A stretch of 64,000 nucleotides of DNA, taken from the NCBI GenBank assembly GCA_964017235.1, contig OZ024936.1, positions 91,486,537-91,550,536 of the forward strand, in the 5' to 3' direction. Below, piece by piece: positions 5,372-64,000 of this stretch (positions within the stretch are counted from its first letter, which is position 1; every line of letters begins with the position of its first letter). The DNA comes from Sabellastarte sp. h YS-2021. Taxonomy: Eukaryota > Annelida > Polychaeta > Sabellida > Sabellidae. The position numbers and the translations under genes are program-made. Below the pieces are notes generated by a model that had not been told where the DNA came from, made no database searches, and saw only the letters and a program-made list of their open reading frames with translations.

Positions 5372-6421
5372 TTAGACCCACGCATCCGAGAACCAATACA
5401 AATTTGTATCCACCGGAAAGACAACTCACCAAAGTCAGTGAACCATCATTTGACCTTGAAGGAGGGGCCCAAGGTCAAATCTGGCCACATCAGTAGATTC
5501 CAGCCCATGATATCCCACAAGTTGGTTTCACATCCCAAACCTCTAGGATCAATAATAAGCGAGTTATAAGCACTTTTAAGTTTGGCTATCTTCGTTTGAC
5601 CTTGAAGGAGGGTTCCAAGGTCAAATCTGACTACATCAAAAGATTCTCAGCCCACGATTTCCTATACGTTGCTTTCACATTGCACACCTCTAGGACCAAT
5701 AATAAGCCAGTTATAAGCACTTTTAAGTTTGGCTGTCCTCATTTGATCTTGAAGGAGGGGCTCAAGGTCAAATCTGACCACATCAGGACATTCCCAGCAT
5801 ATGATTTCCTATACATTGGTTTCACATTGCAAACCTCTAGGACCAATAATAAGGAGTTATAAGCACTTTTAAGTTTGGCTATCCTTGTTTGACCTTGAAG
5901 GAGGGGTCCAAGGTCAAATCTGATCACATCAGAAGATTCCCAGCCAATGATTTCCTATAGGTTAGTTTCACGTTGCAAACCTCTTGGACCCTTTTTAAGT
6001 CAGCTACATGGGGTACTTTGGCACTCCGTGGACGACTTTGAATTAAGAGCTTCAAGGTCAAATGTCTGCAAACCTCTAGGACCAATAATAAGGAGTCAAG
6101 GTCAAATGTCTGCAAGGTTGTAGAGGACATGTATATCTGTTATACATATCACCTATGAAGAGATTCAACCTTCCACCTATGAGAAGCAGCCAGTAGAAAA
6201 AGGTAGATTATTTTCAAAGAAATGCCCGTGGCAGCCATCTTGTTTTTCAGAATGAGGCTAATTTCAGTGCTAGAGAAGCTGACACCCCGCAATGAAGATA
6301 TCTTGCAAATTTGGTGTAGCTTTCCTCTGAGAGTGTTAATGTCAAGAATCTCTCTACGCACCGTGGTGGTAGCGTAGCAAATGCTAAACCAAAGTATCCA
6401 CCGGATGCTTCCGGTGGATAC
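5372..6421 (+). mobile_element. Helentron-like non-autonomous element, 147-bp family (copy E1)
   Basis: It starts TTAGACC (family form CTAGA) after AA and has subterminal GTATCCACCGGA at 5406-5417. The core holds about four ~147-bp repeats (5450-6110). A unique 3' segment follows, then the terminal hairpin 6394-6421: GTATCCACCGGA, loop TGCT, TCCGGTGGATAC. The last arm is the exact reverse complement of the subterminal motif. AA follows, so the target is AA. No coding capacity. The plan matches Helentron-associated elements (asymmetric terminal inverted repeats, 3' hairpin, tandem core). Confidence 0.85.
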
Positions 6422-6424
6422 AAT

Positions 6425-6799
6425 TAGGGACGTGAACGAGCAGTCACCACTCATCAAATGAGACAAATTTCATGAAAATTTGATCTCAATTTTAAGGGTT
6501 GAGTACTCATACACATGTCACCACCTATTGAACTGATTACGTTTTTAGGTAGTAAAACATAAATGACACACCTTACTTACATTAAATGGCATAATCCACC
6601 ATATGTACATTATCTGGTGATATCAGCTAATTCAAGTGACTCAATTAGCTCTTATCTTTAGCTTTTTTCATTTACGGGAGCCGCCATATTGGATGTTTTT
6701 TCCTTGCAAGGTGGGTACTAAACTTCATGAGGGCTCGAAAAGTTGAATTTTAACACGCGGGCAATTGATTCCGAATTATTTGTACTCATCACACCCCTA
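6425..6799. mobile_element. hAT-like MITE (375 bp) with E1 inside its left target duplication
   Basis: Ends are TAGGGACGTG and CACACCCCTA. The right 8-bp duplication AAAGTAAT (6800-6807) is intact. The left one is split by E1: aaagaaa before 5372 and aat after 6421. The body matches the MITE at 38294-38686 (ttcatgaaaatt, aattttaagggttga, gccatattggatgtt). Confidence 0.85.
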
Positions 6800-6962
6800 A
6801 AAGTAATGTGCAGAAATATTTCATGTGGGTAAGAGCCTGGCAAAAAGAAAGTGATAATATTTTGGAAACTATTTGGATCATATTCTGGATATTAAAAAAT
6901 CCAGAAGTTTCTAGCTTACCATAATTTTGGTAGTCATCAGTTGATGTCATGGAAACTAGGGG

Positions 6963-7310
6963 TCCGACTGTACCAGATTTACTAGTTCAGGATTCCGCCA
7001 ATGCAAAACCGTCCTAATTTCAGGATACCAAAAAAGTTGGAGTTTTAAGCATTTCCCTTAAAGCAAATATACCTATAAACAAGAAGTGATTTTCCATAAT
7101 CCAAAACATGCCAGATTTTTTCAAAGAAATCTCTAAAAATGACTTAAATACTAGTGAAATATGAGATAATATTTTATAATTTATTCAGATTCAGGTTTGG
7201 CATTTAATATTTCATGTTTTCCAATAATTATATAAGCTGACATTTGAGATTCCGGTCGTAAAAGTGATCACACTATTTCAGTAAAATTGTCTCAATACCG
7301 TTTTGCCATC
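6963..7310. mobile_element. hAT-like MITE, second family, incomplete right end
   Basis: Left end TAGGGGTCCGAC, then TACCAGATT, CCGCCAATGCAAAACCGTC, and a right half with gacattyragattccggtcg and ctcaataccg. Related copies lie at 15015, 17040 (inverted), 36705, 41836 and 47969. No clean target duplication. Confidence 0.65.
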
Positions 7311-7319
7311 ACAACCGAA

Positions 7320-8085
7320 TAACTGGCCTAATGGAACCACCCACTAAATACAGCTGAAAGTCTTTTTGGCTGTACTTTTCAACATAAACGTATAGTTGAC
7401 AAAGCATGACCATGTGAGAAATATGGAAAAGCCACAGCAATGTATCAAGGAAAAGGGAGAAACAATGCTACTTAATCTTTTAAAACAATAAACCATTCTT
7501 GTCACAGAAATATTTAACACAAGTGTAGGTTACAAACACACTTCACATTAAAAAAAAATAATTTCAGATTATCCTCTCAGCAAGCGTCTTTTTCTATGGA
7601 TAAATTATAACAAGAAAAATATTTCATCAGGCATTTAACCCAATTGAACTTTTTTCTACATGGTTAGTCTATACTTCCACTAAGCTGATCGCTATGATGT
7701 CTATTTGACAAATAACTCGAAACGTTATAGACAGAATTTGACTAAATTTTCATGAAACATTGATAATTTCAGAGATCATTACATTTTATTGCCAGTCCGG
7801 ATCACCATCTGGATCCAGGAATTTTTGAAAACTTTTTATTGTTACACTCATAAGCAATATGGGAGGTGTTGGGCCTTGGCAGAGGTATGCACTCTCCCGA
7901 GTGCTCCTGTTATATACGTTATATTTTGTATGGCAATTACAAAATCCTTACTTTTGGCTAGTAGCTTACAGTGAGTTTGTATCACAGCCTAAATTTCAAC
8001 AAAAAAGGAAGCAACTACCAACGGTCCCACTTCAGTTTACTCAGGACTCTATGGTTACTGTAAAACGAATATTCCACTAGGGTCT
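7320..8085. other. No feature recognised
   Basis: AT-rich sequence without a supported feature. Confidence 0.4.
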
Positions 8086-8086
8086 A

Positions 8087-10602: not shown

Positions 10603-10609
10603 AAGCCTT

Positions 10610-12770: not shown

Positions 12771-12784
12771 AGGCGTATTTTCGG

Positions 12785-13345: not shown

Positions 13346-13360
13346 TTTTTGTCATGAAAA

Positions 13361-14352: not shown

Positions 14353-14359
14353 ATGTTTG

Positions 14360-20615: not shown

Positions 20616-21226
20616 CTAGATGAATGCTTTTGCTAACAAAAGCGAAGCGTCCCTGAGAGTTTAAAATGCCTTGTGGTCTTAATAAGCATGCTGTAAAGCT
20701 AAGAATGCACAAAGCTGCACCGTACTGTTACATAAACCAACCCCCTTAGTGATATCATGACAGGGAAAATCCTACAAAGGTCTTCTTTAATTAACATAAA
20801 CAAGTGTTGTAGACATAGACAAGCTGGAGAAAGTGTTGTACATTGGATGTACAACATTGGATGTAACTTTAGTAAATTTTGTGTAAATGCTACAAAGCAT
20901 TTCAGTAATGAGTATTCAATTTGATAACTTCATATATAATCATGTGTGCAAGTATGTATTGCTATTTAGATTGTCCACAGGGTTTTGCAATAGGTTTTAA
21001 TACATTGTGAAAGCATAAAAGCAACAATAAAGGCAAAAGCTATTTCATGACCCTAGTTTGACCCATACAAGGGGGTCAGGAGGTAAAACTAACCGGCTAT
21101 TTAGACTGTCCAGATATGGTTTCCCAATACCTCTTAATACATTCCGAAGCTATAAAAGCAACAATGAAGGAGATATCAGGTAAAAACTCCAAAACAGCTA
21201 TTTTTTTACCCCAGTTTGACCCATAA

Positions 21227-21257
<31 letters not shown>

Positions 21258-21931
21258 CAGGCAGTAAAACTGACCAGCTACTTAGACTCTCCACATATGC
21301 TTTCCCAATACCTCTTAATACATTCTCAATCTATAAAAGCAACATTAAAGGAGATATAAGGCAAAAACTCGAAATCAGCTATTTTATGACCCCAGTTTGA
21401 CCCATAAGGGGGGGGTCAGGGGTAAAACTGACCGGCTATTTAGACTCTCCACATATGGTTTCCTATTACCTCCCAAAACATTTTATGGCTCTAAATGCAA
21501 TACCTAAGAAGATAACAGGGGGGTTGACCTAAATTTAAGGCTTTCAGATTGGAAGGTGTGAGAAAATCACCCATAAATGAGACATTTTTCTAGGGATTGC
21601 TCCCAAAATCTAATCAGATCGCGTTTTCGATAGTATGAACAGGTCTGTTAAATTATAAGGCTGTGTAGCAAGTAGTTTTTCCTGAACTGCGATGACGGGG
21701 GTGGCGGGGTGGGAGGTGTACTTAAAAAAATTGTTTTTGATCATGTGACCTTGATAATGGTCAAAGGTCAAATTTAAGCATGGAGAAAAATTTTCCCACG
21801 CCTGAGGTATATAACTGCCAAATATGGTTTGAAACCTTCTAATAATAAGGGAGATATTCAAGGGAGACCATAATGCGGCAGTGGCAAGGAAACTGAGGTG
21901 AAAACAAAGAAGCGCCCTTTCAGGGACGCTT
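20616..21931 (+). mobile_element. Helentron-like non-autonomous element, AAGCGTCCCT family (copy E8)
   Basis: Starts CTAGATGAATG after AA. A small hairpin follows (GCTTTTG, loop CTAA, CAAAAGC), then subterminal AAGCGTCCCT. The core has three or four degenerate ~150-185-bp repeats (20930-21490). It ends at a hairpin closing with AGGGACGCTT, the exact reverse complement of the subterminal motif, then AA. One core unit holds a G30 tract where its sisters have 5 and 8 G. No coding frame. Confidence 0.82.
21227..21256 (+). repeat. G30 homopolymer
   Basis: 30 G inside a core unit of the element at 20616-21931. Sister units carry 5 G (near 21070) and 8 G (21408-21415) at the same spot, showing expansion by slippage. 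Confidence 0.9.
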
Positions 21932-27440: not shown

Positions 27441-28973
27441 GTCGCGTTCTTTTAGCTGGCCGGCCGGCTGTTGCTTTAAAAGCAGAGAAGCCTGGGCCAG
27501 AGCACTCTGAAGATGATATTCCTGGCCGGTCTGAAGTCGGTTCATCTTCTCTGCCGGCTGTACACTCAAACCAGTTTCCTGGCCATCCACTGCCTTTACT
27601 ACCGACACAAGTGCCGAGAGTGTTCTGAAGAAATCTGCAGAATTCATCTCTTGCTTCTGATGAAAAAATACTCGAGCTAGGCTGGGGTGACTGATGCTTT
27701 ACAGCAGAGAAGTCGGTACCAGTGCGCTCTGAAGAATGCACCTGTGATGGGGAATTCCTTCCATTCACAGTTTTCAACTACGTAGACTGAAGCTCTCGTG
27801 TAGTACTAGGAGACGTTTCTATGGTGACTGTAGCTGGAAGGTTATAGATGAAACATTCAAACAAAAGACACGGATAAAAAAACCTGTTAGAAGTATATCC
27901 ATAATTCCTCAAGATTGTTGATCCGCCCCTAACAACACAAAGGTTGAATGGGAGGAAACTAGCAAAATGGCTGCCTTCATATATCTCGTCGATTACTGCC
28001 CTATCATCAAAAGTAAATTGAGTCAGCTAGGGAGCGTTTCCAGCAGATTTCTAAATGTATATCCGTGCTTGACCAGTTGGTAACACTTTACAAAGAAACT
28101 CTCCACATATAAGGTTCAAAATCCGTCATAAAGCACACTTTTCCTTTAATAATCTGGAGATGTTGAAAACACGTCTGCACAGTACACGCGCCAAACGAAA
28201 AAGATGCTATGACGTCAGGTTGTCTAGACAGGAAGGAAGTACGAGGCGCCATCTGGGGAGTGCACAGTACTACGGACCGGCCAGCCGGTGGCAACACAGG
28301 ACGTCTTTTTCTGGCGTTTGGCGGGCCGGTCTGCGCCGACCGGATTAGCAATTGTCCATTGGATAGGATGTATTAACGCAATAAAAATAAATTTTCGGCC
28401 TTTTGACAACACAGACCGTACAAATCTAGTCACATGACCTATCAGGAAAGCATTAAACCATTGCTCGAATGTAGTTTCGGAATTGTATCTTTTTCACACT
28501 TGGTAAGTCAATTTAATTGACATAAAGCTTTCAAATAATCTTTAAAAACACTGTAGTTCTGTTTATTTGAGGCGTACATGATATTATATAATCATTATGC
28601 AGCACTTTATAAAGTCGGAATTAGATAATTATTTTAGTATACTGACAGTTTTCAAAGTGTTCCTACATTTGACAATGCATAAACAACCGAAATAAAAGGA
28701 CAAATATGACCCTAAAAGTATTTGGGTGGGAAACAATATATTATTTTACATTTTAATTAAATAGTTTCGTTTTGAGATGACTTTATGAAGTCGACATATG
28801 TCGGTACTCGGTCAGCCAACGTGGGCAATATTCGAGCTTAATTTGCACTAGCGAGTGACAGCACTAGTGGGCTTTCAACTGATTAATACTTCATCAAAAC
28901 AAGGAACATACGAATTTGAGGAAATATCTTACATTTCTAATTTACATTCATGATAAATAGAAAAACTTCATAA

Positions 28974-29348
28974 TATCCCAGCTCGCAGGTACAGTTAAAT
29001 GGCCAACAACATTGAGATTTGGGAAAATCTTAGGAACAACTTCTGTTGTGAGAAGTATAGAGGACCCACAAGATGTTCTACAAAAGATTCATAGGCTATG
29101 ATTTCTTACAAGTAGTTTTCATATTTTGAAGCCCAAGAAACAATTATAAGGGAGATATACTAAATATGAAAAGTGTTGCCATGGATACCCCCCAAAACGT
29201 AATCAGCTCTAGATCCTCTTGGGGTAAACATACCCGCAAAATTTGGTGAAAATCCATGCAGGGGTTTAGTCTGTGAATACCCACAAGCTTTATGCCTGCC
29301 GCCCAGCACAGGGGACGACTATAACCCCAGCCTTTATGGGCTGGGGTT
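28974..29348 (+). mobile_element. Helentron-like element, CCCCAGCC family, short copy (E4)
   Basis: About 375 bp, starting near TATCCCAGCTCGCAGG after AA. It ends in the hairpin 29323-29348: AACCCCAGCC, loop TTTATG, GGCTGGGGTT, followed by AAAAA. It aligns with both halves of the longer copy at 31626-32777, so it is a deletion form without a tandem core. Confidence 0.78.
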
Positions 29349-30725: not shown

Positions 30726-31620
30726 CAAGAGGGTCAAAGATGCCCCAAAAGGCGGGTTGCGCAGGCAGCAATAAGGTTAGCGACTGCTGTAATTACATCT
30801 AGAAACAAGGAAAGAAATGTTAGGTCACCCAGTTAAGGTGAATGTGTCAGATGTGCTAAGAAATGTAAACTTGTAATCTAGGTTACATAATTGTATCTTT
30901 ACTATAAACGGACAAACGAAAGGACGGAATTACACCAATTTCGAAAGCAACTTAGCTATGATGGTGATGTATCTCCCTGTCAAGTTTGAATTTGATTGGA
31001 CAGAGCGTTTTCGAGTTACAGTCCAGAAACAGAAATGTTGACGGACAAATGGACAAACAAACAGACGGAATTACACCAATTTCAAAAGGAACCTCCGGAA
31101 ACTGAAATTTTTGAAGGACAGACAAACGGACTAAACACAGACAAACGAATGGACGCAATTACACCAATTTTGAAAGGAACCTAGCTATGATGGTGATCTA
31201 TCTCCCTGTCAAGTTTGAATTCGATTGGACAAACCGTTTTCGAGTTAAGAGTCTGGAAACAGAAATTTTGACGGACAGACAAATGGACAAAAAACAGACA
31301 CCAATTTCGAAAGGAACCTAGCTATGATGGTGATCTATCTCCCTATCAAGATTGAATTCGATCGGACAAACCGTTTTCGAGTTAGAGTCCGGAAATGGAA
31401 ATTTTAACGGACAAACGGACAAAAAACGGACAAACAAACGGACAGAATTACACCAATTTCGAAAGGAACCTAGCTGTGATGATGATCAATCTCCCTGTCA
31501 AGTTTGAATTCGATCGGACTGTTTTTGAGTTAGAGCCCGGAAACGAAAATGTGGACGGACAGACAGACAGACGTCGGACACATCAAACTAATAGGCGGGT
31601 TGGTTACACGCAACCCGCCT
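30726..31620 (+). mobile_element. Helentron-like element, AGGCGGGTTG family (E7)
   Basis: Starts near CAAGAGGGTCAAAG after AA; subterminal AGGCGGGTTG at 30750-30759. The core has four or five ~140-bp repeats (30930-31560) with caccaatttcgaaaggaacc and atctccctgtcaagtttgaa. The terminal hairpin is 31593-31620: AGGCGGGTTG, 8-base loop, CAACCCGCCT. The last arm is the exact reverse complement of the subterminal motif. AAAAA follows and the next such element starts at once. Confidence 0.82.
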
Positions 31621-31625
31621 AAAAA

Positions 31626-32777
31626 TAGCCAGCCTTGGCAGGCAAGAACCCCAGCCCGCAGGGGTAACTAAATGGGCAACCTTGATTTTTGGGAAAATCC
31701 TACAAACATCTTCAGTCTGTTGTAAGAAGTATACAGAATCCATGAAACGTCAGATGTAAGATTCACAGGCCATGATTTCTTACAAGTTGTTTTCATATTT
31801 TGAAGTCCTAGAGCCAATTATGAGGGAGATATATGGCCCCTTTAGCATGACGAGCCTACATGACCTTGAAGCAGGTTAAATTTGACCCTTGCAAAAGATT
31901 TGATGACCACGATTTCCAAGAAGTTGTTTATCATTCCAAATCCCTAGGACCAATGACAAGGGAGAGGTTAGGGCTTTTGATATCCCCCCATTTGACATAA
32001 AAGATGTCATATGGCAGCCATTTTGCTTTCAAAACAAGGCCAAAATTACTCTCAGCCAAGCTTTCCTAGGCATTTACATTTTGTCCAAATCTGACAGAGC
32101 TACCTGTAATATTTTAAAGTTTAGAACATATCAATGATTTTCGAGTAATCGGGTATGGCGGCCATGTTGATTTGTTTTTAATTAGTACCGGAATTTTTTA
32201 TGCACATGTTTTCACAGCCATAAACATTCTCTGCAAATTTGATGAAGATATCTTCATAACTGAAAGAGATATAAAGCTTGATTTAGAAATGTGACAAATG
32301 CACACATGCATGCACACACATGCACGCACAGGAGTTTCAGGCCAACGCCTGCCTTGGCCAGTGGGAGATTAAAATGCAACTGCTGAAATATCAGTTAAAT
32401 AGCGCCCTTTTTTCAATTAAGAAGTTTAAGACCGAAAAGTATCTAAAGTGTTGCTGTGGCAACAGGTGTCAGATACCCTCCCAAACCTACTCAGCTCTAG
32501 TTCCTGTTTCGGTTAACATATCCTGAAAATTTGGTGAAAATCTGTGTATGGGTTTAGGCTGTGGAACACCCACAAACTTTGAAACCCAAAAATCTCAAAA
32601 CCTAATCACCTCTACAACCTCTTGGGGTAAACATACCTTGAAAATTTGGCGAAAATTCGTGCATGGGTTTAGGTTGTGGAACACCTACAAGCTTTATGCC
32701 TGCCGCGGCCGCCAATGCCACCGCCGCCCGGACAGCGCAGAGGACAACTATAACTCCAGCCTTTATGGGCTGGTGTT
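31626..32777 (+). mobile_element. Helentron-like element, CCCCAGCC family, long copy (E5)
   Basis: Starts TAGCCAGCC after AAAAA. Subterminal AACCCCAGCC lies at 31647-31656. The core is degenerate repeats of about 130 bp (gaaaatttggtgaaaatc, ggtttaggctgtggaacacc). It ends in the hairpin 32752-32777, AACTCCAGCC and GGCTGGTGTT with one mismatched pair, then AA. Its start is separated from the previous element only by AAAAA. Confidence 0.8.

Positions 32778-32935: not shown

Positions 32936-32968
<33 letters not shown>
32936..32968 (+). repeat. C33 homopolymer
   Basis: 33 C directly after CATCTGACCTTGA, at the end of a short tract resembling the TGACCTTGA-containing repeats elsewhere in the window. 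Confidence 0.9.
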
Positions 32969-42169: not shown

Positions 42170-43351
42170 CCATTGTCTTTCAACAGTTGGCTTACTGACA
42201 CAGATACAATAGTTTAGAAATAAACAATTTGAAAGTACATACCTCAGTAAAGTTTGTCAATCAGAAAAATAAACTTTTACAAGTTACAATCTTAGTACCA
42301 GTGTTTGCGAAACTTTTGTGAAGTCTTACATGAACCGTTCGCCGGGGCAATTTTTGACTCTCAATTGACAGGAACTAGAATAATTCTAACATAAAATTTC
42401 AGTTTTCCCGTCATATAGTCTTGATGAATGAAACATAAATGTACATTACAGTTGCTCATCATTAGTTATTGAAAACAAATTTTGTTATCAATTGCAATAC
42501 GAAGCATATTTGACATGTTAAAATGGAAAAAAATAAAATATTTTATACTAGCAGTAGAAGTCAATCCATACTTACGCTTGGTATATTTGGCCATATAGCC
42601 TTTTTTGTCAAATTAAATGTGTATGAAGCTATTGAAGAGAAGTGTGTACACTGAAGCTATTACTACATAGTACATAACTCTGTTTTCAGTATTCAAGGAA
42701 ACAGATTTTTTTGTGTTAGAAACCGAAAGTGATGATTCAACTTATGAAAATAAAAAAGTTCTGACAATATTCCCAATGAGTTTTTAATTAGTTAAAACCA
42801 TAAGTTTAAACTATTGCTCATATAGCTATCAACCTAGATCTGCAAAAATAACAAATTTAATAGAGAACACAAAAAACTCAATAAAATTATTTAAGCACAA
42901 GATGCCGTAGCCCTTCACTTTAGAGAAAACTGCACGTCACACACACGCAAAGATGCTCATAAAATGGGAATTTTTTTAACTTCCCAACTGGCAAGACAGA
43001 ACTATTAGAAAATTCTCATAATATACAAAATTAAAATTTTTGAATATTAAATATAAAGTAATTTCAAACCACAACATTTTTTTTTCAAAAAAATACCACT
43101 TTGTGTGTCAAGGGAAACAAAACTGAAACTGATAATCTTAATATCAACATTAAAATCCCGTAGACTCTATTGTTCAATACTGAAATAGCGATGGTACAAC
43201 GGAAAAAGTTCCGTTTTTTCCCTGAAGGAATTTTCAGCAGAAAATACTCTATTCAAGGAAATACAGGGTGATATGGGCAATATGATCAAATATTTACAAA
43301 AGCTCAGGATGTTCGATTACTGCGCTAGGTGTTCCAAAGAGGAAACTAGCT
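42170..43351. other. No feature recognised
   Basis: AT-rich sequence upstream of CAP exon a. A missing first CAP exon could lie here, but none is recognisable. Confidence 0.4.
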
Positions 43352-45030
43352 CATGGTTTCCTATAGGTTGTTTTTTTATTGTAAACCTCTAGGACCAATA
43401 ATAAGCGAGTTATTAGCACATTTAACTTTTTTATCCTCGTTTGACCTTAAATTAGGAGCCCAAGGTCAAATCTGGCCACATCAGAAGATTCGCAGCCCAT
43501 GATTTCCTATAGGTTGGTTTTACATTGCAAAACTCTAGGACCAATAATAAGCGAGTTATAAGCACTTTTAAATTTGCCTATCCTCGTTTGACCTTGAAGG
43601 AGGGGCCCAAGGTGAAATCTGACCACATCAGAAGATTTGCAGCCCATGATTTCCTATAGGTTGGTTTTACATTGCAAAACTCTAGGACCAATAATAAGCG
43701 AGTTATAAGCACTTTTAAATTTGCCTATCCTCGTTTGACCTTGAAGGAGGGGCCCAAGGTGAAATCTGACCACATCAGAAGATTTGCAGCCCATGATTTC
43801 CTATAGGTTGGTTTTACATTGCAAACCTCTAGGACTAATAATAAGTGAGTTATAAGCACTTTTAAATTTGCCTATCCTCGTTTGACCTTGAAGGAGGGGC
43901 CCAAGGTGAAATCTGACCACATCAGAAGATTCCCAGCGCATGATTTCCTATAGGTTGGTTTCATATTGCAAACCTCTAGGATCAATAATAAGCGAGTTAT
44001 AAGCACTTTTAAGTTTGGCTATCCTCTTTTGACCTTGAAGGAGGGGCCCAAGGTTTTGGCTATCCTCGTTTGACCTTGAAGGAGGGGCCCACGGTCAAAT
44101 CTGACCACATAAGAAGATTCGCAGCCCATGATTTCCTATAGGTTGGTTTTACATTGCAAACCTCTAGGACAAATAATAAACAAATTATAAGCACTTTTAA
44201 GTTTGACTATCTTCGTTTGACCTTGAAGGGGGCCCACGGTCGAATCTGACCACATCAGAAGATTCCTAGCCCATGATTTCCTACAGGCTGGTTTCACATT
44301 GCAAACCTCTGGGACCAATAATAAGTGAGTTATAAGCACTTTTACTTTTGGCTATCCTCGTTTGACCTTGAAGGCGGGTCCCAAGGTCAAATCTGAGCCC
44401 ACATAAGAAGATTCACAGCCCATGATTTCTAATAGGCTGGTTTCACATTTCAAAACACTGGGACCAATAATAAGCGAGTTATAAGCGCTTTTAAGTTTGG
44501 CTATCCTCATTTGACCTTGTGGGGCCCAAGGTCAAATCGCACCACATCAGAAGATTCGCAGCTCATGATTTCCTATTGGTTGGTTTCACATTGCAAACCT
44601 CTATGACCAATAACAAGGGAGATATAAGCACTTTTCATGGCTAAAAAGAAATGCCTATGGCGGCCATCTTGTTTTACAAAATGAGGATAAAAATACTTCC
44701 CATCAAGATTTTGTAATTGTGAACATATCCTGCAAATTTGAGATCTCTATCTATAATACTCTTTGTTCTAGAGGGCCAACAAAACTCATTGCTGAAAGTC
44801 GAAAAAACACCAGTGGCAGACTGGCAGTCATCTTTTTTTTCAAAATGAGGCCAAAAATATTCCCAGGCAAGATTTTATGGTTATGAATATATCCTGCAAA
44901 TCTTAGAAGTCTATCTATAACACCCTGGCCTCTAGAGGGGTAATGAGAAAATCTCTACACATTGTGGTGGCGGTGGCATACTCATGCATAATCCATAGTT
45001 ATAATCCACCAGATGCTATTCGGTAGATAC
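43352..45030 (+). mobile_element. Helentron-like element, 147-bp family, 5'-truncated copy (E2)
   Basis: Begins inside a core unit and holds about nine ~145-bp units to 44640. The same unique 3' segment as the copy at 61418 follows (ggcggccatcttg, aaaatgaggccaaaaatatt). It ends at a decayed hairpin at 45001-45030 (TAATCCACCAGA, TTCGGTAGATAC), followed by AA. Confidence 0.82.
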
Positions 45031-47119: not shown

Positions 47120-47704
47120 GAGTCCAACACCTGGCCTTTGGCTGACAAGAGATCAAAATGTAAGCGTAGTAACATTGGTTTAAGAACGTCTTTTTTGCTA
47201 TTAAAAAGTTTAAGACCGACAAGTATTTAATGCATTGCCATGGCAACAGCTGTCACAGATACCCTCTAGAAAGCTAACCAGCTATAGATCCTCTTGGGGC
47301 TAACATATCCTGAAAATTTGGTAAAAGCTGTGTATCAGTTTTGCCATAGCAACAGTTGCTGCTGGATAACCCCCCTCAAAAAATAATCAACTCAAGATCC
47401 TTTCAGGGTAACTACAACCTGAAAATTTGGTGCAAATTCATGTACTGGTTTAGGCTGTGGAACACCCACAAACTTTAAGACCCAAAAATCTTAAAAGTGT
47501 TTCCATGGCAACAGTTGTTGCCAGATACCCCCCAAAACCTTATCATCTTTAGATCCTCGAGGTAAACATATCCTAAAAATTTGGAGAAAATCCTTGCATG
47601 GATTTAGGCTGTGGAACACCCACAAGCTACCCACAAGCTTTATGCCTGCCGACGCCACCGGGAGCAGGAGATGACTATAAACCCAGCCTTTATGGGCTGG
47701 GGTT
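47120..47704 (+). mobile_element. Helentron-like element, CCCCAGCC family, copy E6
   Basis: Matches 32339-32777. Three degenerate units contain tcctgaaaatttggt and ggctgtggaacacccacaa. Ends in the hairpin 47679-47704 (AAACCCAGCC, TTTATG, GGCTGGGGTT), then AAAAA. The 5' end is not found. Confidence 0.75.
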
Positions 47705-47968: not shown

Positions 47969-48168
47969 TAGGGATGCGTCGGTATCAAAAATGTGTACAT
48001 TGGGAGGTCGCCAATGCATAACCGCACCGATTCTGGGACTCCGCGTTTTAGTACACCCCAGTCACATATGGATGTTTCCTCTTAACGACATTGATATAAA
48101 AGTCCCCAAATGGACAAAATATGGGAGAAACCTGTATAATTTCTTCAGATTTCTTGTCTGTTCCCAAT
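47969..48168. mobile_element. hAT-like MITE, left part, cut by the 133-bp array
   Basis: TAGGGATGCGTCGGTATC, then gccaatgcataaccgcaccg and aatttcttcagatttc match the MITE at 36705 until about 48166, where the minisatellite begins. Confidence 0.6.
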
Positions 48169-48172
48169 ATTG

Positions 48173-49490
48173 GCTAAGTACAATACTTTTAAGAGATAAT
48201 TCTCATTTACTCATTTTGAGTAGGTGAGTAATTATCTACGGGTCTGAAACTTCACCATGTGAAAGCTCTCCCAAAAGTAGATGAAGGAGTTATTTGAGAA
48301 AAATTGGCTATCTGCAATACTTTTACAGATAATTCGCATTTACTCATTTTGAGTAGGTGAGTAATTAGCTATGGGTGTGAAACTTCACCAAGTGAAAGTT
48401 CTCCCAAAAGTAGGTGAATGAGTTATTTGAGAGAAATTGGCTATCTGCAATACTTTTAGCGATAATTCGCATTTACTCATTTTGAGTAGGTGAGTAATTA
48501 GCTATGGGTGTGAAACTTCACCAAGTGAAAGTTCTCCCAAAAGTAGGTGAATGAGTTATTTGAGAAAAATTGGCCATCTGCAAGAGATAATTCGCATTTA
48601 CTCATTTTCAGTAGGTGAGAAATTAGCTATGGGTCTGAAACTTCACCATGTGAAAGCTCTCCCAAAAGTAGGTGAACGAGTTATTTGAGAAAAATTGGCT
48701 ATCTGCAATACTTTTAGCGATAATTCGCATTTACTCATTTTCAGTAGGTGAGTAATTATCTATGGGTCTGAAACTTCACCATGTGAAAGCTCTCCCAAAA
48801 GTAGATGAAGGAGTTATTTGAGAAAAATTGGCTATCTGCAATACTTTTAGAGATAATTCGCATTTACTCATTTTGAGTAGGCGAGTAATTAGCTATGGGT
48901 CTGAAACTTCATCAAGTGAAAGCTCTCCCAAAAATAGGTGAATGAGTTATTTGAGAAAAATTGGCTATCTGCAATAGTTTTAGCGATACTTCGCATTTAC
49001 TCATTTTGAGTAGGTGAGTAATTAGCTATGGGTCTGAAACTTCACCAAGTGAAAGCTCTTCCAAAAGTAGGTGAATGAGTTATTTGAGAAAAATTGGCTA
49101 TCTGCAATACTTTTAGAGATAATTCGCATTTACTCATTTTCAGTAGGTGAGTAATTAGCTATGGGTCTGAAACTTCACCAAGTGAAAGCTCTCCCAAAAG
49201 TAGGTGAATGAGTTATTTGAGAAAAATTGGCTATCTGCAATACTTTTAGCGATAATTCGCATTTACTCATTTTCAGTAGGTGAGTAATTAGCTATGGGTC
49301 TGAAACTTCACCAAGTGAAAGCTCTCCCAAAAGTAGGTGAATGAGTTATTTGAGAAAAATTGGCTATCTGCAATACTTTTAGAGATAATTCGCATTTACT
49401 CATTTTCAGTAGGTGAGTAATTAGCTATGAGTCTGAAACTTCACCATGCGAAAGCTCTCCCAAAAGTAGATGAATGACTTAAAAAGTAGA
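48173..49490 (+). repeat. 133-bp tandem repeat, about ten units
   Basis: Units start at about 48173, 48307, 48439, 48572, 48697, 48830, 48963, 49095, 49229 and 49362 (132-134 bp; one of 125). Each has gcatttactcattttsagta, ggtgagtaattagctatggg, gtctgaaacttcaccaagtg and gttatttgagaaaaattggc. Units are very similar to one another, so the array is young or homogenised. Confidence 0.95.
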
Positions 49491-51209
49491 TGAACAACTT
49501 ATTTGAGAGAAATTGTGTAGCTGCAATACTTTTGAAGATATAAGGCATTTACTCATTATGGTTATCATTAAAAATTGACAAAGTAGCTATTACGGTTTGC
49601 GAGATATTTGTCATTTTTCACATTTTCACCAAAAGTAGCAATAAAGTAGCCATTACTCACTTGTACATTGAGCAACAGTTGTGAAACTTAAATATGTTAC
49701 AGTTCACAAAAAAGTAGATGAACAACTTATTTGAGAGAAATTGTGTAGCTGCAATACTTTTGAAGATATAAGGCATTTACTCATTATGGTTATCATTAAA
49801 AAATTGACAAAGTAGCTATTACTCACTTAGCTATGGAGATACACTTCCAAACTAGTGACCATGTTGTAGCTGTGGAGATAGTAGCTGAACAACATATTGG
49901 AACAAAATTGTGTAGCTGCAATACTTTTGAAGATATAAGCCATTTACTCATTATGGTTATCATCAAAGTAGCTATTACTCAGTTAGCTATGGAGTTACAG
50001 CTGTGAAAATTCACAATACAGTATATCCAAAAGATAGGTGAACAACATATTCGACAAAAATCCTCTATATTCAATAGTTTTTGAGTTATAAGTGACTTGC
50101 TCAATGGTCAAATGTTAAACTTAGTATAGCTATTACTCAGTTAGCTATGGTGCTGCACCTTGGACACCTCACCATGATATAGTACATGAAGGAGTTGTTG
50201 AACAACATATTTCAGCCCAATATTGTAAGTAACAGTTACAAAGACAAAATCAATTTACTCATTTTGCTCATTGTTAATAACAGAAAATAGCTATTACTCA
50301 CTTAGCTATGAAGATAGAACCCTAAAAATGGTACCATCTTGTAGGCATGGAGAAAGTAGCTGAACAACGTCTTTTACAGAAACACTGTAAATGCAGTCAT
50401 TTTGGAGTTATGAGCACTTTACTCAAAGTAGCCACCATTGCTATTACTCACTTAGCTATGGTCCTAGGTGTGAAATAAAAGCATCAAATGAAAGGACATA
50501 AGCAATAAGGTCATAAAAAACATTGAAAAGGCCAAGGAGAAACAACCAGTGTGATGTACAGCCCTTTATAAAAGCGTGACACACACTCAATAGCATTTAC
50601 TCATTTTCAGTAGGTGAGTAATTAGCTACGAGTCTGAAACTTCACCATGTGAAAGCTCTCCCAAAAGTAGATGAATGACTTAAAAAGTAGATGAACAACT
50701 TATTTGACAGAAATTGTGTAGCTGCAATACTTTTGAAGATATAAGGCATTTACTCATTATGGTTATCATTAAAAATTGACAAAGTAGCTATTACGGTTTG
50801 CGAGATATTTGTCATTTTTCACATTTTCACCAAAAGTAGCAATAAAGTAGCCATTACTCACTTGTACATTGAGTAACAGTTGTGAAACTTAAATATGTTA
50901 CAGTTCACAAAAAAGTAGATGAACAACTTATTTGAGAGAAATTGTGTAGCTGCAATACTTTTGAAGATATAAGGCATTTACTCATTATGGTTATCATTAA
51001 AAATTGACAAAGTAGCTATTACTCACTTAGCTATTGAGATACACTTCCAAACTAGTGACCATGTTGTAGCTGTGGAGATAGTAGCTGAACAACATATTGG
51101 AACAAAATTGTGTAGCTGCAATACTTTTGAAGATATAAGCCATTTACTCATTATGGTTATCATCAAAGTAGCTATTACTCAGTTAGCTATGGAGTTACAG
51201 CTGTGAAAA
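49389..51209 (+). repeat. 1.2-kb tandem segmental duplication
   Basis: 49389-50588 is repeated as 50589-51209 plus 53257-53850, with near identity over long tracts. The second copy is interrupted at 51210 by a 2-kb element. The first copy keeps the uninterrupted site (gctgtgaaaattcacaatac near 50000-50020). Confidence 0.9.
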
Positions 51210-53256
51210 CTAGAAATAGGACGCCCTGTTGATAGTAGACACGAATAGAAACAGGATAGCATAGAAGAACACACATTATCATGTGTAATGTCCACCCCAT
51301 GAACCTTTTGCCAAAATTGTACAGTAGTCTTACAAGATCCTGTTTCATTTGTAAAATATATCAATGATGCTTAAATATTTATTAGTGTAGATGTAAATTA
51401 TTTCAGCTTCATGCCTTTTTGCATTGGTTGGGTCGAAAATTTTGACGAAATCACTCTATCTCGCACGGTTTAGGAGATAGAAGCAAATTTGTGTTTTGCC
51501 ATTTTTGGCAAAAATTCGAAAATTCAAAATGGCCGCCATTTTGGGGGAGCGGAAAATTTTTTGAAAATTGCAAAGATTACATTCCTTAGATACCCTGTGG
51601 GTCGAAAATTTTGACGAAATCGCTCTATCTCGCACGGTTAAGGAGATAGAAGCAAATTTGTGTTTTGCCATTTTTGGCAAAAATTCGAAAATTCCAAATG
51701 GCCGCCATTTTTGGGGAGGGGAAAATTTTTTGAAAATTGCAAAGAGTACATTCCTTAGATACCCTGTGGGTCGAAAATTTCGACGAAATCGCTCTATGTC
51801 GCACAGTTAAGGAGATAGAAGCAAATTTGTCTTTTCCATTTTGGGCAAAAATTCGAAAATTCAAAATGGCCGCCATTTTTGGGGAGGGGAAAATTTTTTG
51901 AAAATTGCAAAGAGTACATTCCTTAGATACCCTGTGGGTCGAAAATTTCGACGAAATCGCTCTATCTCGCACGGTTAAGGAGATAGAAGCAAATTTGTGT
52001 TTTGCCATTTTTGGCAAAAATTCGAAAATTCAAAATGGCCGCCATTTTTGGGGAGGGGAAAATTTTTTGAAAATTGCAAAGAGTACATTCCTTAGATACC
52101 CTGTGGGTTGAAAATTTCGACGAAATCGCTCTATCTCGCACGGTTAAGGAGATAGAAGGAAATTTGTGTTTTGCCATTTTTGGCAAAAATTCGAAAAATC
52201 AAAATGGCCGCCATTTTTGGGGAGGGGAAAATTTTTTGAAAATTGCATAGAGTACATCCCTTAGATACCCTGTGGGTCGAAAATTTCGACGAAATCGCTC
52301 TATCTCGCACGGTTAAGGAGATAGAAGCAAATTTGTGTTTTGCCATTTTGGGCAAAAATTCGAAAATTCAAAATGGCCGCCATTTTTGGGGAGGGGAAAA
52401 TTTTTTGAAAATTGCAAAGAGTACATTCCTTAGATACCCTGTGGGTCGAAAATTTCGACGAAATCGCTCTATCTCGCACGGTTAAGGAGATAGAAGGAAA
52501 TTTGTGTTTTGCCATTTTTGGCAAAAATTGGAAAAATCAAAATGGCCGCCATTTTTGGGGAGGGGAAAATTTTTTGAAAATTGCAAAAAGTACATTCCTT
52601 AGATACCCTGTGGGTCGAAAATTTCGACGAAATCGCTCTATCTCGCACGGTTAAGGAGATAGAAGCAAATTTGTGTTTTGCCATTTTTGGCAAAAATTGG
52701 AAAATTCAAAATGGCCGCCATTTTTGGGGAGGGGAAAATTTTTTGAAAATTGCAAAGAGTACATTCCTTAGATACCCTGTGGGTCGAAAATTTCGACGAA
52801 ATCGCTCTATCTCGCACGGTTTAGGAGATATGAGCACATTTGCCTTTTTCAGTATTCAAAATAGCTAATTACTCATTTATTTAATTAATTACTCACTCAT
52901 CTATGAAGCAATTCCCCCCAAAAGCAATCACATACAAGCTATTAACCCAATGAACCTCCATACCAAATTTCAGAAAGCTAGGCTTAATAGCATTCCTTAA
53001 AATGTCTGGAAACCAAAGAGCTACTCAAAAGTAGCAAAGTAGCTATTACTCAGTTAGCTATAGAGCTATCATCACCCAAAGCAATCCCATACAAGCTATT
53101 AACCCAATAAACCTGCATGCCAAATTTGGTAAAGATAGGATAAGAACTGTTGCCTAAAATGTCTGGAAACCAAGTGGGACGCCGGACGCCCGACGCCGGA
53201 CACCGGACGGCGGAAAAAGCAAAAATAATATGTCCACCCCCCAGTGGGGTGGACAT
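51210..53256 (+). mobile_element. Helentron-like element with 169-bp array, nested in E9 (F169)
   Basis: Exact ends are set by the empty site in the first copy of the duplication. Starts CTAGAAATAGG after AA. A hairpin ACACAT, TATC, ATGTGT lies at 51271-51286, then subterminal ATGTCCACCCC at 51288-51298. An 8.4-unit 169-bp array fills 51430-52840. The 3' part has a GC-rich gacgccggacaccggacgg stretch. The terminal hairpin is 53229-53256: ATGTCCACCCC, short loop, GGGGTGGACAT. The last arm is the exact reverse complement of the subterminal motif. AA flanks both sides. No coding capacity. Confidence 0.92.
51430..52845 (+). repeat. 169-bp tandem repeat, eight units plus a partial
   Basis: gggtcgaaaatttygacg recurs at 51430, 51599, 51768, 51936, 52105, 52274, 52443, 52612 and 52781. 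Each full unit contains aaaatggccgccatttttgg, whose minus strand AAAATGGCGGC resembles the YY1 motif. The frames stay open, giving repeated ~74-codon ORFs, which I regard as by-products. Confidence 0.95.
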
Positions 53257-53906
53257 AATTCACAATACAGTATATCCAAAAGATAGGTGAACAACATATT
53301 CGACAAAAATCCTCTATATTCAATAGCTTTTGAGTTATAAGTGACTTGCTCAATGGTCAAATGTTAAACTTAGTATAGCTATTACTCAGTTAGCTATGGT
53401 GCTGCACCTTGGACACCTCACCATGATATAGTACATGAAGGAGTTGTTGAACAACATATTTCAGGCCAATATTGTAAGTAACAGTTACAAAGACAAAATC
53501 AATTTACTCATTTTGCTCATTGTTAATAACAGAAAATAGCTATTACTCACTTAGCTATGAAGATAGAACCCTAAAAATGGTACCATCTTGTAGGCATGGA
53601 GAAAGTACCTGAACAACGTATTTTACAGAAACACTCTAAATGCAGTCGTTTTGGAGTTATGAGCACTTTACTCAAAGTAGCCACCATTGCTATTACTCAC
53701 TTAGCTATGGTCCTAGGTGTGAAATAACAGCATCAAATGAAAGGACATAAGCAATAAGGTCATAAAAAACATTGAAAAGGCCAAGGAGAAACAACCAGTG
53801 TGATGTACAGCCCTTTATAAAAGCGTGACACACACTCAACACACGAACACACGCACACACATGCACGGAATGCGTTTTATAATCTCCCGCCCGGTCGGCG
53901 GGAGAT

Positions 53907-60296: not shown

Positions 60297-60299
60297 TAG

Positions 60300-60976
60300 T
60301 ATGTTTTGATAATTTTATGAATTATCATGTGCATGTTTTCAAAGAACCTACATTATCGCCTATGGCTTATGTTAACGGTCCTGATATTAAAATATTGATC
60401 AATCAATCACCCTAAATTTTCAATTGATATTGATCCCCAACATGGCACCAGATCTTTCTACACTACGTAGTGTATTGATGTGTTACTTACCATATATCTG
60501 TTACAGTGTTTAAAAGTTTATCTGAATTATTATTTTTAATGTACTTTGACTTCTCAGCTTTTGGCTTTAAGAAATGTCTGGAAGTATATATACCAGTCAA
60601 TTTTTGTTTATACTTAATAACATGAGTTTGTTATGACACGATTTGTTAACACAAACCAGAAACACTTATTTCCAACAGATTTGTTACATCAACCGTATTT
60701 TACTTCCAGTTGGCATACATTGAACTATGGATTCTGGTCATTCTTTTTGAAATACCCTGCCAATTTTCCTTGTAAAATTTGTTGTGGCGGCCTGTACAAA
60801 AATGTTGCAAATATTTCTTACCATAGCCAATGGGTGTTTCTCACAGTGGTAATTATAAGTGGTTTGGTGATTAGATGTAGGATCCATTAATAGTAGGAGA
60901 CTGTGCATTATCATGGTTATTCAGTGACAATTTCAAATGAACAATTATTCAACAAAAGTTTTAATTTTTTTTATAC
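60300..60976. other. No feature recognised
   Basis: AT-rich sequence downstream of the DIRS copy. Nothing supported. Confidence 0.4.
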
Positions 60977-61352
60977 CCCTTTCACACTACAGGCGGTATC
61001 ACCAGCGGTTATAGGCGTTTGGTGAAATGTCGATGTCCTTGGATCACCGTCGAACATCTGTTTGCAAACTTCGACTCGTTGCGAGTCAGTGGCAAACTGT
61101 CCATAACCTTGCGCGCCCAACAGAAAGTTTTAAAATGTTTTAAATTTCCACCTCTGAATTTGGTACCGTGAGTACGCGCAGACGATTCCAAGCATGCACA
61201 GATGAATATAAGGTAGTGACTCGGTCATTTTTCGGTGTAAAATAGTGACATAAGGCCACATACAAATCTTGAATGGTAGTTGAAGGACAGGTGCGTTTCG
61301 CCAAATGGCTAAAACCGCAAATTACACTGCATGTAGTGTGAATAACTCGGGA
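60977..61352. mobile_element. MITE with CCCTTTCACACTACAGGCGG terminus
   Basis: Left CCCCTTTCACACTACAGGCG; the right end, read inverted, is TTATTCACACTACATGCAGT. About 375 bp. Related to the MITE at 8087-9036; its ggttataggcgtttgg is the site occupied by the nested hAT MITE in that copy. Confidence 0.65.
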
Positions 61353-61417
61353 CGAAAAGGGACAACATGAGAGGCGGTTCCACTTCTGAGAACACAGATG
61401 CAAAATTGCAAATTTAA

Positions 61418-64000
61418 CTAGACCTATCGCATCGGAGAACCGATGCAAATTGTATCCACCAGAAGAAAACTCACCAAAGCCATTCTAACATTGCTTAACC
61501 TTGAAGGAGAAGCCCAAGGTGAAATCTGACCATATCAAAAGATTCTTAGCCCATGATTTCCTATAGGTTGGTGTGACACTGCAAACCTCTAGGAATACGA
61601 ATAAGCAAGATATAAACACTAATTTTGGCAATCCTCATTTGACCTTGAAAGAGGGGCCAAAGGTCAAATCCGATCACACCAAAAGATTACCAGCCCATGA
61701 TTTCCTAGATTTTGGTTTACCATTCCAAAGCTCTAGGACCAATAATAAGCGAGTTATAAGCACTTTTAAGTTTGGCTATCCTCGTTTGACCTTGATGGAG
61801 GGTCCAAGGTCAAATCCGACCACAGCAATAGATTCCCAGCACATGATTTTGTGTACTATCCTCATTTGACCTTGAAGGAGGGATCCAAGGTCAAATCCGA
61901 CCACAGCAATAGATTCCCAGCCCACGATTTCCTATATGTTGGTTTACCATCCCAAACCTCTAGGACCAATAATAAGTGAGTTATAAGCACTTTTAAGTTG
62001 GGCTATCCTCATTTGACCTTGAAGGAGGGGTCCAAGGTCAAATCCCACCACACCAAAAGATTCCCAGGCCATGGTTTCCTATAGGTTGGTTTACCATCCT
62101 AAACCTCTAGGACCAATAATAAGTGCGCTATAAGCACATTTAAGTTTGGCTGTGCTCGTTTGACCTTGAAGGAGGGGTCCAAGGTCAAATCCGACCACAC
62201 CAAAAGACTCACGGCCCATGATTTCCTATAGGTTGGTTTACCATCTCAAACCTCTAGGACCAATAATAAGCGAGTTATAAGCACTTTTAAGTTTGGCTAT
62301 CCTCATTTAACCTTGAAGGAGGAGTCCAACGCCAAATCCGACCACACCAAAAGACTCCCAGCCCATGATTTCCTGTAGGTTGGTTTACCATCCTAAACCT
62401 CTACGACCAATAATAAGCGAGTTATAAGCACTTTTAAGTTTGGCTATCCTCATTTGACCTTGAAGGAGGGGTCCAAGGTCAAATCCCACCACACCAAAAG
62501 ATTCCCAGGCCATGGTTTCCTATAGGTTGGTTTACCATCCTAAACCTCTAGGACCAATAATAAGCGAGTTATAAGCACTTTTAAGTTTGGCTATCCCAGT
62601 TTGACCTTGAAGGAGGGGTCCAAGGTCAAATCCGACCACACCAAAAGATTTCCAGCCCATGATTTCCTATAGGTTGGTTTACCATCCCAAACCTCTAGGA
62701 CCAATAATAAGCGAGTTATAAGCACTTTTAAGTTTGGCTATCCCCGTTTGACCTTGAAGGAGGGGTCCAAGGTCAAATCCGACCACACCAAAAGATTCCC
62801 AGCCCATGATTTCCTATATGTTGGTTTACCATCCCAAACCTCTAGGATCGATAATAAGCGAGTTATAAGCACTTTTAAGTTTGGCTATGCTCGTTTGACC
62901 TTGAAGGAGGGGTCCAAGGTCAAATCCGACCACACCAAAAGATTCCCAGCCCATGATTTCCTATACGTTGGTTTACCATCCCAAACCTCTACGACCAATA
63001 ATAAGCGAGCTATAAGCACTTTTAAGTTTGGCTATGCTCGTTTGACCTTGAAGGAGGGGTCCAAGGTCAAATCCGACCACACCAAAAGATTCCCAGCCCA
63101 TGATTTCCAATAGGTTGTTTACCATCCCAAACCTCTAGGACCAATAATAAGCGAGTTATAAGCACTTTTAAGTTTGGCTATCCTCGTTTGACCTTGAAGG
63201 AGGGGTCCAAGGTCAAATCCGACCACACCAAAAGATTCCCAGGCCATGATTTCCTATAGGTTGGTTTACCATCCCAAACCTCTAGGACCAATAATAAGCG
63301 AGTTATAAGCACATTAAGTTTGGCTATGCTCGTTTGACCTTGAAGGAGGGGTCCAAGGTCAAATCTGACCACACCAAAAGATTCCCAGCCCATGATTTCC
63401 TATAGGTTGGTTTACCATCCCAAACCTCTAGGACCAATAATAAGCGAGTTATAAGCACTTTTAAGTATGGCTATCCTCATTTGACCTTGAAGGAGGTGTC
63501 CAAGGTCAAATCTGACCACACCAAAAGATTCCCAGCCCATGATTTCCTATAGGTTGGTTTACCATCCCAAACCTCTAGGACCAATAATAAGCGAGTTATA
63601 ACCACTTTTAAGTTTGGCTATCCTCGTTTGACCTTGAAGGAGGGGTCCAAGGTCAAATCTGACCACACCAAAAGATTCCCAGCCCATGATTTCCTATAGG
63701 TTGGTTTACCATCCCAAACCTCTAGGACCAATAATAAGGGAGATATAAGCACTTTTCATGACTGCAAAGAAACGCCTGTGGCGGCCATCTTGTTATTCAA
63801 AATGAGGCCAAAAATATTCCCAGTCAAGATTTTATAATGAGGAACATATCCTGCGAATTTGAGATCTCTACCTATAATACCCTTTGCTCTAAAGGGCCAC
63901 CAAAAGTCCTTGTTTAAAGTCGAAAAACGCCCGTGGCGGCCATCTTATTTTTCAAAATGAGGCCAAAAATATTCCCAGGCAAGATTTTATGGCTATGAAT
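61418..64000 (+). mobile_element. Helentron-like element, 147-bp family, long copy (E3), runs off the window
   Basis: Starts CTAGACCTATC after AA. A perfect hairpin GCATCGG, AGAA, CCGATGC (61429-61446) follows, then subterminal GTATCCACCAGA. About 15 core units of 146-147 bp fill 61490-63740, followed by the family's unique 3' segment, where ggcggccatctt occurs twice (63781, 63936). The terminal hairpin is beyond the window. Because 147 is divisible by three, single frames stay open across units; these ORFs are not taken as genes. Confidence 0.87.
61490..63740 (+). repeat. 147-bp tandem repeat array, ~15 units
   Basis: gaccttgaaggaggggtcca recurs at 62456, 62603, 62750, 62897, 63044, 63190, 63336, 63483 and 63630, plus more divergent units before. 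Each unit has the inverted pair TTTGACCTTG and CAAGGTCAAA with about 11 bases between. The same unit forms the cores at 5450-6110 and 43360-44640. Confidence 0.95.

Follow-up and report, generated by a model that had tools for sequence, protein, structure and literature searches.

Probable non-autonomous Helentron families sharing one end fold in a 64-kb stretch of Sabellastarte sp. DNA, with a gene-carrying partner for one of them

Non-autonomous relatives of Helentrons, the HINE or DINE-1 elements, were described by Thomas et al. (2014, PMC4067079) as having a palindromic 5' subterminal repeat, which lies 2-4 nt from the end in mite families, an inverted copy of it inside the 3' end, a 3' hairpin, a TT target and a tandem core, and as derivatives of an element with Rep, helicase and endonuclease. 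Asymmetric terminal inverted repeats with 5' and 3' hairpins were described for Helitron2 by Bao and Jurka (2013, PMC3627910), who also reported compensatory changes, a proposed switch in 5'/3' pairing and an occasional reversed Rep gene. In the Pacific oyster, 11 Cg_HINE elements with satellite-like cores were published from one genome (Vojvoda Zeljko et al., 2020, PMC7492417). According to their description, they share with the elements below the many families per genome, motifs of 11-12 bp with a complementary arm, a GTCC-type microsatellite after the 5' hairpin, the satellite-like core and a 3' palindrome.

The window, a stretch of 64,000 nucleotides from Sabellastarte sp., holds several small rolling-circle families that keep one end fold and change its letters. 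The kind of element is already known, and the published oyster families make the number of families here no surprise in itself; what is found here is the gene-carrying partner of one element, E7. A tandem-core HINE is thereby tied to an endonuclease-bearing Helentron of the same genome, whereas the oyster authors reported that they could not relate their elements to autonomous ones (PMC7492417). The elements are very probably non-autonomous Helentrons, that is, HINEs with Helitron2-type ends. This is indicated by their anatomy and borders, by the TT target, by four sites that are also known empty and, for E7, by an endonuclease-bearing Rep-helicase partner. A Helentron-type origin had been proposed in a sequence-only reading of this DNA; its blueprint observation is partly confirmed, and its interpretation as a whole is partly supported.

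That reading had placed a CTAGA-like start at one end and a final hairpin at the other. The direction is the reverse: the hairpin is the 5' end and CTAG is the 3' end. Along the minus strand, the plan consists of TT, a 5' hairpin of the motif, an inverted motif copy, a small hairpin, CTAG and TT, as published for Helitron2/Helentron elements and their non-autonomous HINEs. The 5' end is TT plus the palindromic motif, the inverted copy is located approximately 22-34 nt from the 3' end (78 nt in F169), and the second small hairpin lies between this copy and the 3' end. The five proposed motif pairs and their terminal hairpins were present where they had been placed. The plan had been attributed to all of the listed elements, which held at both ends for E1, E5, E7, E8 and F169, at one end for E3, E4, E6 and E9, and at neither end for E2. 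The 5' terminal hairpin was built from the subterminal repeat in E1, E5, E7, E8 (bulged) and F169 and also in E4, E6 and E9, and the inverted copy was found upstream of the 3' hairpin in 5/5 complete elements, the hairpin being weak in E7 and decayed in E1. The 3' end was CTAG in E3, E8, F169 and five E1-type loci, and CTTG in E7 and its partner; the CTAGA-like border was inexact in some elements (TTAGA in E1, CAAGA in E7 and ATAGC in E5). Compared with HINE/DINE-1 elements as described in PMC4067079, the differences are that most families here end in CTAG and that F169 has its 3' copy 78 nt inside, followed by two hairpins. The listed elements covered 15.2 kb, or 23.8% of the window, in agreement with the earlier estimate of about a quarter.

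All of the elements lie on the minus strand. E1 (5372..6421) is a complete HINE with its 3' end at 5372 (TTAGA instead of CTAGA), a 5' hairpin GTATCCACCGGA at 6394-6421, a 147-bp tandem core from 5449, the 3' inverted motif copy at 5406-5417 and the decayed 3' hairpin at about 5382-5399. Seven relatives of E1 were fetched, of which L002-L005 and L007 ended in CTAG followed by TT, as did L006 without the small hairpin; the end of L008 was not recovered by the pattern. E3 (61418..64000) is the 3' end of an E1-type HINE with the 147-bp core, and its 5' end is beyond the window edge; CTAG is at 61418, the 3' hairpin GCATCGG..CCGATGC at 61429-61446 and the motif copy at 61452-61463. E2 (approximately 43340..44760) is an E1-type array of the 147-bp core without recognisable ends. 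E8 (20616..21931) is complete, with CTAG at 20616, a 5' hairpin with one bulged base at 21910-21931, a 181-bp tandem core, the motif copy at 20645-20654 and the 3' hairpin GCTTTTG..CAAAAGC at 20626-20643. E7 (30726..31620) is also complete, with the 3' tip CTTG, a 5' hairpin AGGCGGGTTG at 31593-31620, the motif copy at 30750-30761 and the weak 3' hairpin at 30731-30746.

E5 (31625..32777), whose 3' tip adjoins E7 directly, has both ends, with the 5' hairpin at 32752-32777, the motif copy at 31647-31656 and the 3' hairpin at 31632-31643. Its relatives are E4 (28960..29348; 5' hairpin 29323-29348), in which the 3' end is decayed and similarity to E5 starts inside the motif copy at 28977, and E6 (47140..47704; 5' hairpin 47679-47704), in which a 3' end was looked for and not found. 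F169 (51210..53256) is complete, with CTAG at 51210, a 5' hairpin ATGTCCACCCC at 53230-53256, an interior of GTCCGGC-type microsatellite and 8.4 units of a 169-bp tandem core, the motif copy at 51288-51298 and hairpins at 51271-51286 and 51225-51255. It splits E9 (48166..53906), a HINE with a tandem core of 133 bp, a tandem duplication of 1201 bp and the 5' hairpin ATCTCCCGCC at 53882-53906; the left coordinate of E9 is the start of the core because its 3' end was not found. E9, earlier listed as a probable member, is a real family with a hairpin and a border of its own.

The borders were evaluated from genomic copies. Among the 40 best-scored matches of each search, all 39 non-self copies of F169, E8 and E9 stopped within 0-16, 0-23 and 0-12 bases, respectively, past the hairpin-side AA. 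On the 3' side, the 40 scored copies, self included, started 0-8 bases before the CTAG-side AA for F169 and 0-14 bases for E8, with extra rows in both searches corresponding to tandem units. Whole-element searches with E1 and E7 gave many partial matches inside the cores and were left out of the border evidence. The flank was TT at the 3' end of F169 in 30/30 loci (window copy included) and at its 5' end in 11/11, in 20/20 for E8 and in 20/20 for E9 with the strand of L119 corrected (19/20 as scripted). The empty-site search covered the 11 F169 loci with both flanks, three of which gave joint-spanning matches in the genomic DNA sampled. In 4/4 empty sites, the insertion had gained exactly TT in a T-rich site. 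One of these clean empty sites is inside the window, at 50008..50009 in the first unit of the 1201-bp duplication, where GTGAAAATTCAC corresponds to GTGAAAA/F169/AATTCAC. Copies with ends off the CTAG and hairpin borders, or with longer target duplications, would have spoken against the blueprint; there were none of the former among the best matches of F169, E8 and E9, and no duplication longer than TT at the four F169 empty sites.

The occurrence of the plan by chance was assessed with a scan that required arms of 11 with at most one mismatch, AA beside the hairpin and the motif upstream near an AA-CTAG-like start. E1, E7 and F169 were recovered in the window, and the remaining matches comprised one spurious pairing at the E4 hairpin plus hairpins within the 147-bp tandem core; E8 was absent because of its bulge. 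No match arose in any of six first-order Markov reshuffles of the window. With arms of 10, there were 0-3 matches per reshuffle and many more in the real window, mostly in the 147-bp core. A wider scan of 348 kb of genomic DNA (68 sources) gave 43 places, where three reshuffles gave 0-2; almost all of the 43 belonged to known families or were hairpins of the cores, and no new family was taken from them. In a 10-letter test, each family's 5' arm agreed with its own 3' copy in 9-10/10 letters and with the ends of other families in 4-7/10, except that E7 and its partner agreed with each other in 10/10. The cores had been described as sharing no sequence, which requires correction for E3 and E5, distantly alike at 67% over 321 bp (E=4e-20), and for E1 and E2, likewise distantly similar to E5.

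A search for a Rep-helicase element with the same ends, as suggested earlier, succeeded for E7. The genome also contains a Rep-helicase-endonuclease element of 12.5 kb whose ends and 5' core are 76-88% identical to those of E7. Its copies on two chromosomes are 99% alike over the parts read in both and finish at E7's ends. The domains were Helitron_like_N (1.2e-25), Pif1_2B_dom (1.2e-5) and Exo_endo_phos (1.6e-5); in the C3 copy (L066), the latter two share one frame of 422 aa, and its join to the Rep frame is putative. The Rep motif is RGSPHLH, with S between G and P as described for Helentrons in PMC4067079, and the endonuclease makes the partner a Helentron, in difference from Helitron2 as described in PMC3627910. 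Given the shared ends and 5' core, E7 is most simply read as a deletion derivative of the 12.5-kb Helentron, whose motif it shares. Both partner copies have a second, inner 5' hairpin, and the outer 5' end may therefore derive from a captured neighbour. The Helentron signature RGSPH was seen in the Rep.

Long tandem cores would also be expected of satellite-array fragments with accidental end hairpins, but the borders are fixed, the flanks are TT and empty sites exist, which makes this origin scarcely credible; for F169 it is already refuted by the empty sites. In the older reading of pearl-like elements, these would be MITEs of the cut-and-paste type that carry tandem repeats inside. They are indeed short, non-coding and abundant, with inverted terminal motifs and TT on both sides; nevertheless, such an origin is highly improbable, since the inverted repeats are placed asymmetrically, with one copy in the hairpin at the tip and the other 22-78 nt inside, and E7's partner is a Rep-helicase-endonuclease element. 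Canonical Helitrons (Helitron1) start with TC, lack a 5' hairpin and inverted terminal repeats, end in CTRR with a hairpin some 11 nt upstream, and insert between A and T. E3, E8 and F169 resemble them in the CTAG end and in a hairpin that stops 10-15 nt from the tip, and F169 has 5' flanks of ATT in 11/11 loci and four empty sites that can be parsed as A^TT. Membership in this group is very unlikely, because the 5' end is TT rather than TC, every complete element has the 5' hairpin and the inverted motif copy, and E7's partner has an endonuclease. Proto-Helentron-Pi is described in PMC4067079 as lacking the endonuclease and as having 5' TT, 3' CTAG and insertion between A and T, a plan by which F169 can also be parsed. 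Several points tell against the Helentron reading: the ends in CTAG, like the A^TT site of F169, recall canonical Helitrons; the motif copy of F169 is at 78 nt versus the 20-60 nt published; the 3' flank of one partner copy is TA and not TT; both partner copies have the inner 5' hairpin; and E1, E5, E8 and F169 gave no intact partner in the search of the Rep loci.

One replicase serving many end sequences had also been suggested; a single Rep shared by all families would imply that the letters of the ends are irrelevant. The Rep search gave few matches (24 from 36 candidates) in comparison with 1325-11788 first-look candidates per family search, as would suit such sharing. A common Rep is nonetheless unlikely: the Rep loci split into several divergent DNA groups, and the ends of other families agree in 4-7/10 letters in the 10-letter test. 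In the sole testable case, the partner carries E7's motif at both ends, which speaks against a single replicase for all ends, for that pair only.

As non-autonomous Helentrons, the elements would be mobilized by a Rep protein of such Rep-helicase-endonuclease elements, which would nick at the T-rich border, after which one strand would be peeled off and copied. Replication would stop once the 3' motif copy had paired with the 5' arm and so opened the hairpin at that end, as proposed by Bao and Jurka (2013, PMC3627910). If the match among the three arms is what must be kept, the letters could change from family to family under a constant fold. The bridged form won the junction folds of E7 (input without the last three bases), its partner, E8 and E4/5, and the local hairpin won in E1 and F169; fold energies alone thus do not decide. 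The 5'/3' complementarity extended 1-2 bases into the 5' hairpin loop in every family examined, a pattern noticed post hoc. Its uncorrected, post hoc chance probability is ~0.001 for five families at one in four each, or ~0.004 for four families without the E4/E5 hybrid. Tentatively, and with doubt prevailing, end recognition might be a strand switch with a toehold, in which the extra 1-2 bases of the 3' copy pair with the loop, allowing the 3' end to invade the 5' hairpin and open it. Whatever its letters, a sequence that keeps the three-arm match could then act as an end, which would account for many unrelated end sequences with one fold, and the published proposal on how replication ends becomes concretely testable through the loop.

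When the 24 Rep loci were compared with the window by BLAST, no intact partner came to light for E1, E5, E8 or F169. An E1-type array near one Rep locus, L029, was not counted as a partner link because it has the opposite sense and gave no match in the sister locus L028, which is 98% alike over about 1.05 kb. Links by the core only were seen for F169 and E9. Upstream of a decayed Rep (L025) there is a core resembling that of F169, but no end hairpin was found at that place. A second Rep-helicase family (L010/L016) has endonuclease-like frames and shares the 133-bp core of E9 at 88-90%; its gene would run against the orientation of E9, and this core-only link is a lead.

The repeat elements E1–E9 and F169, all lying on the minus strand, jointly spanned 15.2 kb of the window (23.8%). 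Both ends were present in E1, E5, E7, E8 and F169, which were thus complete elements. E3 had a single end within the window, the hairpin end alone was still recognizable in E4, E6 and E9, and neither end was recognizable in E2. The pairs of family-specific 10–12 bp motifs described in the sequence-only reading were found where it had placed them. The 5' arm agreed with its own 3' copy at 9–10 of 10 letters and with other families at 4–7 of 10. A scan for motif, terminal hairpin and AA borders with 11-base arms gave E1, E7 and F169 as true matches; the rest were one spurious pairing at the E4 hairpin and 147-bp core hairpins, and six reshuffled windows gave 0 matches. The description of the cores as unrelated failed for E1, E2 and E3, which were distantly like the E5 core (67–68%, 321 bp at best); hence, the families are not all unrelated internally. 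Single-base runs of 29–35 bases occurred at 634–692 (T then G), 4769–4803 (C), 21227–21256 (G) and 32936–32968 (C).

Along the minus strand, TT and the 5' hairpin came first, then the tandem core and the inverted copy of the motif, and lastly the small hairpin followed by CTAG and TT. This order corresponds to the Helitron2 and Helentron/HINE ends described in the available portions of PMC3627910, PMC4067079 and PMC7492417, and the Rep gene of the partner Helentron of E7 had the same sense as the minus-strand reading of E7. The orientation proposed from sequence alone was therefore reversed. A GTCC-type microsatellite followed the 5' hairpin in F169 and E7, as the available part of PMC7492417 reports for oyster HINEs. 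The elements are HINEs (non-autonomous Helentrons), members of an already known kind, and the earlier Helentron-type assignment was upheld.

The main gains were the partner of E7, clean empty sites and a rule for the ends that can be tested; the ends, the target of F169 and the E7–partner relation are shown by the sequences. There were 24 genomic matches to Helitron_like_N, of which L012, L014, L015 and L017 formed one group of near-identical Rep loci. Two members were extended, namely the copy on chromosome C2, which was read through, and that on C3, which had two unread internal gaps. Both terminated at the ends of E7, the C3 5' arm differing by one letter, so the search for a Rep-helicase element with the same ends succeeded for E7. 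The last 183 bp of E7 and this 12.5-kb partner were 88% alike, and the 5' part 76–81%. The idea of one replicase serving many ends was unsupported for E7, whose ends matched the partner at 10 of 10 letters, the exception to the between-family range. Pfam assigned Peptidase_C48 (21.2 bits; cut-off 20.7), DUF6570, Helitron_like_N, Pif1_2B_dom and Exo_endo_phos to pieces from either copy; the helicase GGAGVGKT was present in a part outside the scanned pieces. The last helicase part and the endonuclease occupied two frames in the C2 copy and one in the C3 copy. A second 5' hairpin lay several hundred bases inside both copies, which thus had an outer and an inner end hairpin each (L067:342 and 1110; L068:2692 and 3292). 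The letters upstream of the inner one were identical in both, so the partner seems composite, resembling the composite Fusarium Helitrons in the portion of PMC5148889 available. A TTTTT flank preceded E7 and the partner. E7 directly adjoined the 3' tip of E5 (31620–31625), an insertion at the end of another element, and the terminal CTAG of E5 was ATAG.

For the borders, only the 40 best of 1325–2035 first-look candidates per search were scored. E1 and E7 were searched whole and gave many partial core matches, which were left out of the border evidence. Among the best 40 at the F169 5' end, 39 of 39 non-self matches stopped at query 169–185 (AA at 168–169); at its 3' end, 40 of 40, self included, started at query 1–9 (AA at 9–10, CTAG from 11), two additional rows being tandem units. 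For E8, 39 of 39 of the best-scored matches stopped at 194–217 (AA at 193–194) and 40 of 40 started at 1–15 (AA at 15–16, CTAG from 17), six additional rows being tandem units. For E9, 39 of 39 of those scored stopped at 239–251 (AA at 238–239). Borders displaced from the CTAG and hairpin were thus looked for in F169, E8 and E9, and none occurred among the best 40 per search. The F169 3' flank started with TT in 30/30 fetched loci, including the window's own copy, and the 5' flank ended with ATT in all 11 readable loci (TT, 11/11). TT was found at 20/20 fetched E8 5' ends (ATT in 19/20) and 20/20 E9 ends, L119 being counted after strand reversal. The E8 ends were not all independent because six of the 20 (L088, L089, L090, L095, L096 and L103) had the common flank CTCCCTTAATAATT and a seventh, L097, differed from it by one letter; this E8 copy seems to have been carried along within another repeat. 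The letters before TT varied by family, mostly TAATT in E8 (L085–L104) and ATT in F169, and T-any-TT preceded E9 in 18/20 5' flanks (L105–L124).

F169 was inserted in the second unit of the 1201-bp tandem duplication of E9, the first unit being uninterrupted. Comparison of the uninterrupted site GTGAAAATTCAC with GTGAAAA–F169–AATTCAC gave a net gain of two bases. Both flanks were available for 11 more F169 loci, three of which had uninterrupted relatives among the fetched sequences: L041 (relatives L025 and the window), L056 (its own tandem units) and L060 (L045). The gain was exactly TT in each; the best relatives matched the flanks at 77–90%, which makes individual bases close to the joint less certain. 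Judged from sequence, the four empty sites all fit an A^TT site and an element that would run TT...CTAG, the two T being either a duplication or element-borne. A longer target duplication was absent in 4/4.

In published accounts, a Rep-helicase copies such elements by rolling circle, and the available part of PMC3627910 suggests that terminal-repeat pairing opens the 5' hairpin and fixes the replication end. The end-to-end match and the uninterrupted 5' stem measured, respectively, 13 and 12 bp in E1, 12 and 5 in E8 (9 stem pairs across a bulge), 12 and 10 in E7, 11 and 10 in E4/5, and 12 and 11 in F169; hence, complementarity goes 1–2 bases beyond the stem into the loop. E4/5 was a hybrid with the 5' arm of E4 and the 3' end of its relative E5, whose own 5' arm had one mismatch with its own 3' copy. 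Pairing beyond the outer edge occurred in E1 only. Joined-end folds took the bridged form in E7 (folded with its last three bases missing), the partner, E8 and E4/5; for E1 and F169, the local hairpin was retained. The loop extension and bridged folds hint at a switch, short of proof. The 3' motif copy would pair 1–2 bases into the 5' hairpin loop as a toehold. We consider this account of end recognition rather unlikely; the short extension of 1–2 bases and the presence of the E4/E5 hybrid among the five cases lowered its probability slightly. Among the papers searched, none contained both 'Helitron' and 'toehold'.

A second Rep-helicase family with endonuclease-like frames was located at G000:C2:115874500-115892000 (L075, L016, L071, L073, L078) and G000:C1:175352000-175370600, 97–99% alike between the two chromosomes. 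The 133-bp core of E9 lay near one side of it, and a nested E8-type start was present. One copy had a GTATCCCCG hairpin end, and one had an insert with reverse-transcriptase-like frames. At L025, with L069 and L070 (G000:C6:140228000-140238600), a core resembling that of F169 lay immediately upstream of a decayed Rep gene; this locus is possibly a remnant of F169's own partner.
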